64,000 nt of DNA, taken from the NCBI RefSeq assembly GCF_004143485.2, contig NZ_ML974132.1:198920-262919 (forward strand). The letters are read 5' to 3'. This stretch comes from Halorussus amylolyticus. Lineage in GTDB: Archaea; Halobacteriota; Halobacteria; Halobacteriales; Haladaptataceae. The notes beneath the pieces were generated by a model, which was not told where the DNA came from, made no database searches, and saw only the letters and a program-made list of their open reading frames with translations. This document shows positions 2,639 through 59,402 of this stretch, in pieces; positions within the stretch are counted from its first letter, which is position 1; each line of letters begins with the position of its first letter. The position numbers and the translations under genes are program-made.

Positions 2639-2674
2639 ATGGCACGCGAACAGCAGGGGCGGGTGAGGCGATGA
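2639..2674 (+). CDS. Candidate 11-codon upstream ORF coupled to the LEA14 gene
   Basis: An ATG at 2639 opens an 11-codon frame (MAREQQGRVRR) whose TGA overlaps the ATG of the LEA14 gene as ATGA at 2671-2674. It sits at the expected start of a leaderless transcript from the TATA-like box at 2609. It may be a translated leader that delivers ribosomes to the LEA14 start, or chance; the peptide resembles nothing I know. Confidence 0.3.
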   Translation: MAREQQGRVRR

Positions 2675-4482
2675 GCGTCCTCGGCGGCACGCTCGGAAAG
2701 GTCGCGGCCGCCTTCGTGGTCGGAACGGTCCTCACGAGCGCGGGTCTCGGTGCGGCGTTCGCGACCGGAACGCTGACCCTCGACCCGCCGACGGTCGAAT
2801 CGATACAGAACGAATGGGGCGAGGTGACCGACGAGACGACAGGCATCGAGACCCGACTTGTGGTGACCAACCCCAACGGGGTCGCCATTCCGGGGGTCGC
2901 TGGCGTCGAGTACGACGTGAACATGAACGACGTGACCGTCGCGTCCGGGTCGAGCGGCGGTATCGGTCTCTCGCCCGGCGAGAACGAGGTCACGCTCCGG
3001 ACCGACATCGACAACGGAAAGATACCCGCGTGGTGGGCGACCCACATCAACAACGGCGAGGAGACCACGATTTCGATTCGGCCGTCGCTCGACGCGCCGC
3101 TTTTCTCCTCGGAGTTGCCCGCCCAGGACCGGACGTTCTCGACCGACCTGCTCTCGTCGTTCGAGAGCGACTCGGGCGAGTCGGTGACCGCTGGCGGTCG
3201 CACCCTCCTGACGGTCGAGTCCACTGACGCGTCGTGGGGCGAGGCGACTGCCGAGGAGACCCCGCTCCAGTTCTCGGGCACCGTGACGAATCCGAACGAC
3301 GAACCCCTCGAATTCGCCGAAATCGGCTACACCGTCTCGATGAACGACGTGACGCTCGCGGAGGGGACCACCGGCGACCGCGTCGAAATCGGGGCGAACG
3401 AGACCGAGACCATCCGCATCGACTCCGCGCTCGACAATCAGCGCCTCGACGAGTGGTGGGTCAGCCACCTGAACCGCGGCGAGAAGACCGACCTCGAAGT
3501 CGAAGCGTTCGCGGAAGTCGAGACCGACGACGGGACCCAGCGCGTTCCCCTCTCGTTCCTCAGCAAGCGCGTCGTCTTCGAGACTGACATCCTCGGCGGC
3601 GGCGCGGCGACAACCCGCGCGGCCGATGGCGACGGTTCGGAATTCGAATCGCCCACGATAGAGTCGGTCGAGCGCGACTGGGCGAGCACGGATTCGGGCA
3701 CCCGATTCGCGACGACCGTCGTCGTCAACAACCCCAATCCGGCGAACGCGACCCCCGGCGAACTCGCGCTCGACGCGACCTACCGCGTCGCGCTCAACGA
3801 CGTGGGCCTCGTCAACGACAGCCAGCGCGCCACCCTGACGGAGGGCCGCAACGAACTCGGATTCGAGAGCGACGTCAGCGACCGAACCATCACGGAGTGG
3901 TGGGTCAGCCACATCGAGCGCGGCGAGCGAACCGACCTGACGACCGAGGCCGACGTGTCCGCGGACCTCGGATTCACGAGCGTCCCGGTCGAGGTCCCCG
4001 ACCAGAGTCGGTCGTTCGAGACCGACGTGCTCTCGGGCTTCGACGACTCCGAGCAGGAAGTCAGCGTGCAGGGGCAGCATCTCGCCACGATGGACGACAT
4101 GACTTCCGAGTGGGGCGACCCCACGATGAACAAGACTCCGATGGTCGTCTCGGGCGAGGTGACCAACGAGCGAACGTTCCCGCTCACCATCGAGCGGTTC
4201 GGCTACGAGGTCCGGATGAACGACGTGGTGCTGGCCGACAATGAGAGTCACGTCGGCACGACGGTCCCCGGACAGTCCACGCGCGACATCGAGACGACCG
4301 GCTACCTCGAAAACGACCGGATTCCCGAGTGGTGGGTCAGCCACCTCGACAACGACGAGCGCTCGGAGCTCTCGGTGTCGTACTACGCGGTCGTGTCGTT
4401 CGGCGGGCAGGAGTACACCGTCGAACTCGATTCGATGAGCTACGAGGACGTCATCGAGACGAACGCTTTCGGCGACGAGTGA
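2671..4482 (+). CDS. LEA14/WHy-type desiccation-related protein with four tandem domains
   Basis: The 603-residue protein has one N-terminal hydrophobic segment (residues 8-32, signal or membrane anchor) followed by four WHy/LEA14 units of about 140 residues. Each unit has an 'xPNxxxxP' strand, a 'YxVxMNDV' or 'YRVALNDV' strand and ends in (E)WWVSHxxxGE(K/R)(T/S)DL. LEA14-type folds are linked to desiccation and osmotic stress in plants and bacteria; archaeal roles are untested. An outward-facing surface protein is likely. Single-domain LEA14 proteins are about 150 residues, so four fused copies are unusual. Translation may be coupled to the 11-codon frame at 2639. Confidence 0.8.
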   Translation: MSVLGGTLGKVAAAFVVGTVLTSAGLGAAFATGTLTLDPPTVESIQNEWGEVTDETTGIETRLVVTNPNGVAIPGVAGVEYDVNMNDVTVASGSSGGIGLSPGENEVTLRTDIDNGKIPAWWATHINNGEETTISIRPSLDAPLFSSELPAQDRTFSTDLLSSFESDSGESVTAGGRTLLTVESTDASWGEATAEETPLQFSGTVTNPNDEPLEFAEIGYTVSMNDVTLAEGTTGDRVEIGANETETIRIDSALDNQRLDEWWVSHLNRGEKTDLEVEAFAEVETDDGTQRVPLSFLSKRVVFETDILGGGAATTRAADGDGSEFESPTIESVERDWASTDSGTRFATTVVVNNPNPANATPGELALDATYRVALNDVGLVNDSQRATLTEGRNELGFESDVSDRTITEWWVSHIERGERTDLTTEADVSADLGFTSVPVEVPDQSRSFETDVLSGFDDSEQEVSVQGQHLATMDDMTSEWGDPTMNKTPMVVSGEVTNERTFPLTIERFGYEVRMNDVVLADNESHVGTTVPGQSTRDIETTGYLENDRIPEWWVSHLDNDERSELSVSYYAVVSFGGQEYTVELDSMSYEDVIETNAFGDE

Positions 4483-4508: not shown

Positions 4509-4597
4509 GCGTCGAATCGAGTAACTGAGTGACGCCATTCTTCGAGGGTCGTTGTCCGGTCGGTACGAATCGCAGATGCTTGCAGCAGGAACAGCCA

Positions 4598-4719
4598 GAA
4601 AGCCCCCGCCCGGTCGCGGTCGCTGACCGACATATCCGCGCCTCACCGCAACGCACCGTATCGGCGCGGATAGAGGTCGGTCAGGCGACCAAGCGTTGCG
4701 CGACCGGGCGGCCCCTTTC
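4598..4719. ncRNA. Structured intergenic element, copy A
   Basis: The core is bounded by GAAAG and CTTTC, which pair. Inside are a symmetric CCC/CCC internal loop, a 13-bp stem CCGCCCGGTCGCG/CGCGACCGGGCGG, then GTCGC/GCGAC, a bulged G, helix TGACCGAC/GTCGGTCA, an A versus GAG internal loop, helix TATCCGCGCC/GGCGCGGATA and an apical loop with CACCGCAACG. Copies at 46886 and 56422 keep this architecture with different but still paired inner helices. It lies in the 409-bp gap between the LEA14 and amine-oxidase-like genes. I do not recognise it as a named RNA. Orientation of any transcript is unproven; copy B hints at the minus strand. Confidence 0.6.
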
Positions 4720-4728
4720 AGTCCCACC

Positions 4729-4782
4729 CCGTGATTTGTGTCACCGGGCGAACTACCGTGATTTGTGTCACCGGGCGAATTA
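4729..4782. repeat. Two 27-bp direct repeats beside element copy A
   Basis: Units at 4729-4755 and 4756-4782 differ at one base. Each contains CCGTGATTTGTGTCACCGG, a small imperfect hairpin with loop TTTGTGT. Single related hairpins follow the other element copies at 47024-47039 (TCGG/CCGA arms) and 56602-56617 (CCGAT/ATCGG arms), so this looks like a satellite stem-loop of the element, duplicated here. Confidence 0.6.
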
Positions 4783-4891
4783 CGGTGGACGATTCGCGTA
4801 AATAGCATCTCGCCAACGCGCGAACACGATTCACCAAACTGAGAACGTTCGAGTAACAAGGCATTTGCCGACCCATCCCGAATCGAGTCTC

Positions 4892-46771: not shown

Positions 46772-46885
46772 CTGGCCGATTGTTTCTGTTGGCTGATTTT
46801 CCAGCGGCGGATGCGGTTGCGGTGCGGTTCTCATAGGTACCGGGAGTAGCTAGCGTCTCGCTGTCGGGTGGATAGTGACTTTCTC

Positions 46886-47009
46886 GAAAGCCCCCGCCCG
46901 GTCGCGGTCGTTGCGCGGCATATCCTCGGTCTCTCCGCACCGCCTGACCTCGGATAGGGGCCGCGCAAGCGACCACGGGCCTACGGCCCGCGACCGAGCG
47001 GCCCCTTTC
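46886..47009. ncRNA. Structured intergenic element, copy B
   Basis: It keeps GAAAG/CTTTC ends, the CCC/CCC loop and the 13-bp stem (one C-A mismatch on this strand, which is G-U on the minus strand). Helix 2 is TTGCGCGGC/GCCGCGCAA with the bulged G after it, and helix 3 is TATCC..GGT/ACC..GGATA with a TC/TC mismatch (tandem G-A on the minus strand). The apical loop keeps CTCCGCACCG. A short extra hairpin GGGCC/GGCCC fills the linker. The satellite hairpin is at 47024-47039. It lies 3' of the minus-strand acetyltransferase gene. Confidence 0.6.
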
Positions 47010-47065
47010 AGTCCCACCCTCCGTCGGTTGTTCATCCGAGCGTCCGTCGTCGAACCCCAATCGCT

Positions 47066-56421: not shown

Positions 56422-56590
56422 GAAAGCCCCCGCCCGGTCGCGGTCGCTGTGCAGGATATTTGCGCCTCTCCGCACCGGAAGACAAACAACGTCTTCCGAG
56501 GTCACCCTCGCTTCGCTCGCGTGACCACCGCCCGGCGCAAATAGTGGCCTGCACAGGCGACTACATAAACGCGACCGGGCGGCCCCTTTC
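56422..56590. ncRNA. Structured intergenic element, copy C
   Basis: It has the same ends, 13-bp outer stem and CCC/CCC loop. Helix 2 is TGTGCAGG/CCTGCACA with the bulged G, and helix 3 is TATTTGCGCC/GGCGCAAATA. The apical loop keeps CTCCGCACCG but is expanded by two extra hairpins (GGAAGAC/GTCTTCC and GGTCAC/GTGACC), making this copy 45 bp longer. The satellite hairpin CCGAT/ATCGG is at 56602-56617. It fills most of the 414-bp gap between tatD-like and the gene at 56706. Confidence 0.6.
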
Positions 56591-56705
56591 ATTCCTCCCC
56601 ACCGATTGTGTCATCGGCCGTTTCCGGCAGCCGTGTCACCGAGCGAAGTCGTCTGCAAATGCGACCAACGAGGCGCTCAAGAGCCTCGGGCACACAGATT
56701 CACGC

Positions 56706-57764: not shown

Positions 57765-59402
57765 ATGTCAGACGACAGCACACAGCGGTTCAATCGCCGT
57801 AGTTTCCTGAAAGCGACGGGTGTGGCCGGTGCGGCTGCCGCACTCGGTGGCGTCACGGCAGCGACTCCCGGCCGAGACCCCGGCCCGAAAGAGAACGAGA
57901 TTCTCGTGGGTGTTTCGGCTGGCGCAGGCGACATCGAGGGAAAAGTCACCTCGCACGTCCCCGGCAACGCCGAAGTCGTTCACAAGAACGAGAAGCTTCG
58001 GTACGTCGCCGTGAAGTTCCCCGAGCAGGCCCCCGAGACGGCCCAGGAGAACTTCATCGAGGCCATCACGAAGAAGGACGGCATCAAGTACGCGGAGGTC
58101 AACGAGACTCTCGAGGCCCAGTACACCCCGAGCGACCCCGACTTCGGTGACCAGTACGCGCCCCAGCAGGTCGGCTCCGACCAGGCGTGGGACACCACGC
58201 TCGGTGACTCGGACGTCACCATCGCGGTCGTGGACACCGGCGCGCAGTACGACCACCCGGACCTCGAAGCCAACTTCAAGTCCAACCCCGGTCAGGACTT
58301 CGCCGACGGCGACGACGACCCGTACCCGGACGCGCCCAACGACGAGTACCACGGTACGCACGTCGCTGGCTGTGCGGCCGCAGTCGTGGACAACGACACC
58401 GGCGTCGCTGGGCAGGGTAACTCCTCGCTCATCAACGGCCGCGCGCTCGACGAGTCCGGCGGCGGTTCGACCGCCGACATCGCGGACGCCGTCGAGTGGG
58501 CCGCAGACCAGGGCGCGGACATCATCAACCTCTCGCTCGGTGGCGGCGGCTACACCGACACGATGAAAAACGCCGTGTCGTATGCGACCGACAACGGCGC
58601 GCTCGTCATGGCCGCGGCGGGCAACAGCGGTTCGCAGGGCGTCAGCTACCCCGCGGCGTACGAGGAGTGTGTCGCGGTTTCGGCGGTGGACGACAGCGAG
58701 AACCTCGCGTCGTTCTCCCAGTACGGTTCGAGCGTCGAACTCACCGCACCGGGCGTGGACGTGCTCTCGACCACGACCGAGGAGCGCGGTTCCTACGAGA
58801 CGCTGTCGGGCACCTCGATGGCGACTCCGGTCGCGTCCGGAGTCGCCGGTCTGACGCTCGCCCAGTGGGACCTCTCGAACGCCGACCTCCGCGCCCACCT
58901 CAAGGACACTGCGAAGGATATCGGACTGTCGGACGACGAGCAGGGTAGCGGTCAAGTCGATGCCTACGCCGCGGTCACCACTGAACCCGGCAGCGGCGGC
59001 GACGACCCGGACGACCCCGATGACCCGGACGACCCGGACGACCCCGATGACCCGGACGACCCGGACGACCCCGATGACGGCGACGAGACGAGCGAGACGC
59101 TCAGTGACTCGCTGTCGAGCTACTACGACTACGACGACTACACGTGGTCGTGGGAGTACAGCAGCCCGAGCCGAATCGAAGTCGTGCTCGACGGTCCGAG
59201 CGACGCCGACTTCGACCTCTACGTCAACGAGGGCACCACGCAGAACGCCTCGCCCGACAACTACGACTACCGCTCCATCAGCACGAACAGCCAGGAGACC
59301 ATCACCATCGAGAACCCCGACACCTCGACGGAACTCCAGATCAACGTGGACTCCTACAGCGGGTCGGGTAGCTACGACGTGACCATCACCGAGACCAACT
59401 AA
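57765..59402 (+). CDS. Tat-exported subtilisin-like protease (halolysin type)
   Basis: The 545-residue protein has a Tat signal (FNRRSFLKATG, Arg11-Arg12), an inhibitor-like propeptide (about 36-120), an S8 catalytic domain with Asp157 (AVVDTGAQYDHPD), His196 (YHGTHVAG), Asn287 (AAAGNSG) and Ser351 (LSGTSMATP), an Asp-Asp-Pro repeat linker and a C-terminal PPC-like beta domain (about 440-545). It is expected to be secreted folded and active in high salt. A T6 run at 59432 ends the transcript. Confidence 0.93.
   Translation: MSDDSTQRFNRRSFLKATGVAGAAAALGGVTAATPGRDPGPKENEILVGVSAGAGDIEGKVTSHVPGNAEVVHKNEKLRYVAVKFPEQAPETAQENFIEAITKKDGIKYAEVNETLEAQYTPSDPDFGDQYAPQQVGSDQAWDTTLGDSDVTIAVVDTGAQYDHPDLEANFKSNPGQDFADGDDDPYPDAPNDEYHGTHVAGCAAAVVDNDTGVAGQGNSSLINGRALDESGGGSTADIADAVEWAADQGADIINLSLGGGGYTDTMKNAVSYATDNGALVMAAAGNSGSQGVSYPAAYEECVAVSAVDDSENLASFSQYGSSVELTAPGVDVLSTTTEERGSYETLSGTSMATPVASGVAGLTLAQWDLSNADLRAHLKDTAKDIGLSDDEQGSGQVDAYAAVTTEPGSGGDDPDDPDDPDDPDDPDDPDDPDDPDDGDETSETLSDSLSSYYDYDDYTWSWEYSSPSRIEVVLDGPSDADFDLYVNEGTTQNASPDNYDYRSISTNSQETITIENPDTSTELQINVDSYSGSGSYDVTITETN
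59004..59075 (+). repeat. 27-bp minisatellite encoding the DDP linker
   Basis: One partial and two complete identical 27-bp units encode DPDDPDDPD blocks between the protease and PPC domains. Copy number probably varies between strains by slippage, changing linker length. Confidence 0.75.

Follow-up and report, generated by a model that had tools for sequence, protein, structure and literature searches.

The intergenic regions of Halorussus amylolyticus raise the question of what kind of element a recurrent, structured palindrome represents. Three such copies had been described in the 64,000-nucleotide stretch of DNA analyzed here (hereafter, the window), for which the original prediction offered a new ncRNA class or a mobile element as the main readings. 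The element keeps its fold by compensatory changes, is dispersed and broadly distributed, and bears a strand bias. On balance, we lean towards a non-autonomous, dispersing intergenic palindrome in which one strand maintains the fold, most likely in the form of RNA within read-through transcripts.

Anatomy of the hairpin and its surroundings

The three copies were confirmed at positions 4598-4719 (copy 1), 46886-47009 (copy 2), and 56422-56590 (copy 3), where a covariance model scored them on the minus strand with 120.2, 103.9, and 105.4 bits, respectively. The exact 22-base head matched three times in the window, as compared with 0.02 times per shuffled window, and all copies folded far better than shuffled sequences (z of -7.7, -5.4, and -8.4 for copies 1, 2, and 3).

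Copy 1 is built from a GAAAG/CTTTC foot, a 3x3 internal loop, a 13-bp helix, and a junction strand, followed by an inner part in which an asymmetric internal loop separates a bulged helix 2 from helix 3, itself capped by an apical loop. This is also the usual form among 78 GAAAG...CTTTC units extracted from the H. amylolyticus genome, which are usually 105-128 bases long (about 115) and have a 5-bp foot, a one-base bulge in helix 2, a helix 3 starting with TAT/ATA, an apical loop that often reads CTCTCCGCACCG, and a junction strand that takes one of two forms, a short AAGATAAA-like stretch or a small side hairpin (GGGCCTTCGGCCC), the latter occurring in copy 2 as GGGCC/GGCCC. The foot is kept in all aligned copies except one, and nearly all of them also keep the bulge, the asymmetric loop, and the CCC/CCC mismatch of the 3x3 internal loop; in some copies (L029 and L072) the inner stem is wholly missing. 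Two details of the earlier description did not hold across copies. The bulge, given as a G, is A in 39, G in 20, C in one, and absent in four of the 64 units parsed for it, and the apical sequence, reported as conserved, is variable, with some copies having AAACC-type loops only.

Directly 3' of the CTTTC foot, a spacer of the form A(G/T)TCCC(A/G)CCC is conserved, and conservation drops past it. In copy 1 this spacer reads AGTCCCACCC (4720-4729, plus strand; conserved position by position among copies of the same genome), or GGGTGGGACT preceding GAAAGGGG on the strand that we argue below to be the sense strand; copy 2 has the same AGTCCCACCC at 47010-47019 and copy 3 a diverged ATTCCTCCCC at 56591-56600 (both plus strand), after which GTGTCATCGG/GTGTCACCGAGCG repeats extend as far as about 56645. 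A 27-bp repeat in 2.2 copies, CCGTGATTTGTGTCACCGGGCGAACTA, occupies positions 4729-4787 (plus strand) and is one form of the GTGTCACCGG repeat, which is found beyond the spacer in most Halorussus copies. On the other side of the hairpin, many copies carry one to four tandem units measuring about 54 bp, or 72 bp in Haladaptatus. In these units the 20 bases that open the hairpin recur, and the 54-bp form begins with GAAAGCCCCCGCCCGGTCGC; 5' of copy 1, a putative and degenerate 54-bp unit ending in AACAGCCA is weakly recognizable at 4545-4597 (plus strand).

A piece of a second repeat seen beside several hairpin copies, TCTCATAGGTACCGGGAGTAGCTAGCGT, lies at 46829-46856 (plus strand) and matches positions 1473-1500, inverted, in 27 of 28 bases. 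The region 1473-1665 is apparently a degenerate composite of the same repeat types without a hairpin, made up of the inverted GGTACCGGGAGTAG repeat (1473-1500), a CCTCCCCGCC...GCGCGCGG palindrome, and three 26-bp repeats (1587-1665). A separate 27-bp tandem repeat, of type GACGACCCGGACGACCCCGATGACCCG, occurs at 59000-59086, apparently in a coding region.

The extra length of copy 3 corresponds to an inserted two-hairpin module, CGGAAGACAAACAACGTCTTCCG-AGGTCACCCTCGCTTCGCTCGCGTGACCAC, located in its apical loop at 56476-56528 (plus strand). A whole-genome search recovered 11 copies of this module (CGGAAGACAAACCGCGTCTTCCGAGGTCAC...GTGACC), 10 of them in hairpins and one in a larger composite; its sites are the apical loop, the outer helix region, or the junction strand, and it is inserted in either orientation, leaving the surrounding helices intact. 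A further module of about 45 bp was found within the AGTCCC spacer. In one Haladaptatus-type genome, nine pairs of heads lie 375-766 bp apart, all convergent (+ - order in 9/9), and thereby form large nested palindromes whose interior includes motifs such as CCTCCCCAACCGATT...AATCGGTTGGGGAGG. Nested palindromes with the inner motifs CCTCCCCAACCGATT and CATCCCTCGCGCG were seen between convergent hairpins in Haladaptatus (L035-L043) and H. amylolyticus (L074 and L077), and probably represent the full-length composite.

Covariation and the strand that probably folds

The claim of compensatory change within a fixed architecture was strongly upheld. The alignment comprised 105 distinct copies, about half of them from H. 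amylolyticus and the remainder from other genomes; both partners have changed in 22 of its 34 base pairs. Double-change cells number 492 against 149 in shuffles, and paired cells reach 97.6%, as compared with 83% in shuffled alignments and 35-44% with a slid partner; the slid controls preserve the relatedness of copies, which the shuffles do not, and the effect is large. Neither of the two outcomes that had been set against the original prediction, absence of covariation and an Rfam match, was found. Covariation alone is no proof of RNA, because REPINs are mobile DNA and compensatory changes are common in them (PMC3116915).

Long, near-perfect arms, nested palindromes, and a pair of copies with common inner blocks and different outer arms (L062 and L073) are also what would be seen if template switching or hairpin repair kept the arms of a functionless palindrome complementary. 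Such passive arm-copying is, nevertheless, highly improbable, since repair would erase the unpaired positions (the CCC/CCC mismatch of the 3x3 loop, the bulge, and the asymmetric loop), yet nearly all copies keep them, and defined mismatches persist across about 100 copies and in distant genera. Moreover, it predicts equal numbers of G.T and A.C mismatches, which are expected to be equally common in any symmetric DNA palindrome. On the strand originally chosen, with G.T and A.C scored alike, unique contexts comprised 37 A.C and 9 G.T mismatches (p = 4e-5), and the excess was present in both data sets (14:2 in H. amylolyticus and 27:7 elsewhere). In the alignment oriented along the complementary strand, 58 contexts of G.U contrast with 11 of A.C, at 24 and 10 pair positions, respectively; distant copies go in the same direction with 3 to 0, numbers too few to count. 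Folding energy was lower on this complementary strand in 72/72 copies of the genome, and the covariance model gave the window copies 104-120 bits on the minus strand versus 21-31 on the plus strand, a comparison that alone is not independent, as the model was built in the minus orientation.

Genes were called with a simple codon-based caller trained on the window, according to which no copy lies inside a predicted gene. Between tandem genes, the sense strand is co-directional with its neighbors in 64 cases and opposed to them in 21 (p = 3e-6), a bias that rests on our own gene calls and that the loss of harmful insertions could also produce; in the loci outside H. amylolyticus alone, co-orientation gave p = 0.0014. 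This co-orientation supports transcription as the relevant context. Copy 1 goes against the pattern, its sense strand opposing both of its plus-strand neighbors, which encode an amine-oxidase-type flavoprotein and an LEA_2 (PF03168) repeat protein of 603 amino acids (window positions 2671-4482); the DNA of the latter contains four repeats about 430 bp apart. The genes flanking copy 2 are convergent, with a GNAT acetyltransferase encoded on the minus strand, and those flanking copy 3 are divergent and include one for a TatD-type DNase.

The fold-bearing strand is probably GAAAGGGGCC...GGGGGCTTTC (minus in the window), opposite to the GAAAGCCCCC strand; the original choice of strand was thus probably wrong, as both the G.U excess and the gene co-orientation fall on its complement. 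Selection for a G.U-tolerant fold, in RNA or single-stranded DNA, is a possible cause of the excess, and so are more frequent C-to-T changes on this strand, as occur on the transcribed non-template strand; either cause singles out the same strand. Two points would weigh against an RNA, namely that a strand-biased C-to-T rate also yields a G.U excess on that strand and that folded single-stranded DNA also tolerates G.T. Taken together, G.U mismatches and co-orientation argue for a fold that would act as a single strand, most simply and most likely as RNA carried in intergenic read-through transcripts. There its very stable stem may protect or mark off stretches of mRNA, the role proposed for ERIC and REP hairpins.

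Integron attC sites are folded recombination sites with an outer stem, an unpaired spacer, and extrahelical bases, in which one strand is used and the unpaired bases are conserved. The present hairpin is similarly folded, with an outer stem, an unpaired spacer, extrahelical bases, and one strand favored, and its unpaired bases are conserved too. A DNA element moved by a non-HUH recombinase, with the structure kept for cruciform recognition in the manner of attC-like sites, would also accommodate the nested inverted pairs of Haladaptatus (palindromes of 375-770 bp in + - order in 9/9). We regard it as quite unlikely: a double-strand cruciform explains neither the strand bias of mismatches nor the orientation bias relative to genes, and no cassette array or integrase association was seen; instead, the copies are dispersed and single, with a different architecture and diverse genes beside them.

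Distribution, dispersal, and the search for a mobilizer

In the H. amylolyticus genome (3.78 Mb, 20 contigs), the head matched 49 times on the forward and 44 times on the reverse strand with up to two mismatches (reversed control, 0), and 70 and 68 times with up to three (control, 2 and 2), the latter counts including tandem outer units. The common orientation noted earlier is therefore a property of the window, whereas genome-wide both strands are used equally (70 and 68). A chromosome-polarity motif was rejected given the mixed orientation along contigs. Within Halorussus, copies per genome range from 0 (G009) to 114, and the covariance model matched in 118 of 391 genomes of the class, covering 45 of 86 genera; a phylum-wide sample gave no covariance-model matches beyond the same order. 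A scan of named genomes gave matches mainly in Halorussus species, with some in Haladaptatus, one in a MAG, and one in Haloarcula salina. A hairpin head on a contig labelled as a Planctomycetia MAG (L173) probably reflects a haloarchaeal contig binned wrongly. At six loci (L222, L223, L225, L226, L229, and L233) from several genomes of one other genus, near-identical hairpins share the same long palindromic interior and adjoin a related predicted protein of about 335 amino acids, which suggests one conserved or recently spread locus.

No copies were found in IMG/VR, searched with an exact pattern, or in a phage collection, and matches in plasmid records had no underlying annotation. Comparison with Rfam 15 gave no match above the gathering cut-off, nor any with E <= 1 under lax filters. 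A literature search found no paper naming the repeat, and searching by sequence text returned unrelated papers only.

Hairpin pairs of the H. amylolyticus genome with 92-98% identity have flanks at the similarity of random pairs; in L056 and L065, for instance, identity is 0.98 in the hairpin and 0.60 in the 50 bases upstream. Since identity stops at the hairpin ends, the hairpin, perhaps together with the spacer, is the copied unit. The sites of copies 2 and 3 have no hairpin in most of up to 17 other Halorussus species. Where an orthologous site does have one (L179, L186, and L202, and in diverged form L196), it is in the opposite orientation, and the inner helices of those examined are unrelated. 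No filled/empty junction at base resolution was found between species, because intergenic flanks are too diverged. No target duplication was visible by eye around the hairpins and no matching transposon was identified under MITE criteria. Gene conversion could explain part of the sharing of hairpins.

The very stable, strongly covarying one-strand fold and its wide haloarchaeal range would also suit a stand-alone regulatory ncRNA gene in many copies, which we consider very unlikely. Information content is near zero at about 10 bases past the CTTTC foot and low on the other side, which leaves no sign of a conserved promoter; species differ in the sites occupied, and some copies have internal insertions or have lost the inner stem entirely. 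Each of the two readings first offered is half right: the copies behave as a dispersing element, and the fold also looks selected on one strand, probably as RNA, whereas a stand-alone ncRNA gene is not supported because promoter-like sequence beside the hairpin is not conserved and contexts are variable.

A Y1 HUH transposase (RAYT or IS200/IS605 TnpA) might recognize the hairpin as single-stranded DNA and cut near the GAAAG/CTTTC foot, as in REPIN/REP or PATE-type elements, with covariation then reflecting recognition of a DNA fold. The short foot tag, bulged hairpin, intergenic dispersal, compensatory changes, and lack of visible target duplication match REPINs (PMC3116915), Haloquadratum is rich in PATEs that bear palindromes near their termini (PMC3119063), and single-stranded DNA tolerates G.T as well. 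We nonetheless find this explanation unlikely. Recognition of single-stranded DNA alone predicts no co-orientation with genes. Y1_Tnp (PF01797) was not found in the H. amylolyticus genome (about 93 copies), with controls matching, and five further Halorussus genomes that carry 17-97 copies also lack it; 15 Y1 loci of Halorussus had no hairpin by the model. Y1_Tnp is present in some copy-poor Halorussus relatives. A Y1 transposase was rejected as the partner, being absent here and uncorrelated with copies in the genus.

GAAAG-like heads at four Y1 loci turned out to be coding sequence or inexact matches, and GAAAGTCCCCG-like matches at Y1 loci fall, by reading, in tnpB. The H. amylolyticus genome has four TnpB-type loci (L031-L034) though no detectable Y1 TnpA; these four lack the hairpin, and a TnpB/omega-RNA end was rejected on that account. 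IS605-type elements of Halorussus (L250, L252, L254, and L258) carry, upstream of tnpA, a short hairpin of the type CCCACCCCTT(C/T)AGGGGTGGGATGAAGC, which faintly recalls the GGGTGGGATTGAAAG beside the present hairpin and may do so by chance.

No RVT_1 reverse transcriptase was found in the H. amylolyticus genome; an IS91-type Y2_Tnp gave no match, but neither did its controls. No gene family was convincingly associated with the copies in the manner of RAYTs; neighboring genes are diverse, and the few recurrent ones look like ordinary genes or positions shared by related species. New copies possibly arise by enzymatic replication or by gene conversion between copies. We favor an enzyme that would act in trans and recognize the folded strand, and it would be neither a Y1 (IS200/IS605 or RAYT-type) transposase nor an RVT_1 enzyme detectable in this genome. 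A haloarchaea-wide mobile element that spreads through a folded RNA or single-stranded DNA strand with a non-Y1 enzyme that is no recognized reverse transcriptase, and that has hairpin parasites of its own inserting into its loops, is conceivable, though we advance it only tentatively.

Relation to known repeats and implications

ERIC sequences of enterobacteria are 127-bp, intergenic, dispersed, transposase-free repeats with internal insertions. By architecture, the haloarchaeal hairpin resembles them and other intergenic repeat units, as an imperfect palindrome of about 100-130 bp that is intergenic, dispersed, and transposase-free; it differs in belonging to another domain of life, with no recognized sequence similarity. 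Beyond ERIC, it has a tested strand asymmetry, a 54/72-bp outer array, and inverted pairs that enclose a long, structured interior.

Like REP/REPIN sequences, it is dispersed, forms inverted doublets, and combines a conserved outer tag with an inner stem that varies and shows compensatory changes (PMC3116915). REPs are, however, 20-40 bp long and tagged with GTAG or CGTC (PMC3733652), the GTAG ones accompanying Y1 RAYTs, whereas here the tag is GAAAG/CTTTC, the hairpin measures about 115 bp, and the genome has no Y1 gene. The PATEs of Haloquadratum walsbyi are transposase-free, palindromic, and without target duplication, with ends in common with IS605-type transposons, and small mobile repeats (SMR-A) insert into their palindromes (PMC3119063). 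The present element is likewise haloarchaeal, transposase-free, and palindromic, and its two-hairpin module inserts as SMR-A do into PATEs; unlike PATEs, which were compared by description, it is absent from the 15 Y1 loci of Halorussus and the four TnpB loci of H. amylolyticus. We do not file it as a REPIN or a PATE because the Y1 association that defines them was looked for and not found.

Transposase-free palindromic repeats as such are already known. Noteworthy in this one are its range across the haloarchaea, the apparently strand-specific fold, the parasites nested within it, and the fact that no mobilizer was found. Counting G.U against A.C by strand offers a general test to distinguish strand-specific folds from symmetric DNA palindromes, and separates what covariation alone cannot. 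The structured element described here reaches up to about 100 copies per genome and occurs in about half of the sampled haloarchaeal genera, without annotation wherever this was checked. If it is transcribed as the sense strand, many haloarchaeal mRNAs would be shaped by this hairpin; and if it is mobile without a Y1 transposase or a reverse transcriptase, it would point to a new mobilizing enzyme.
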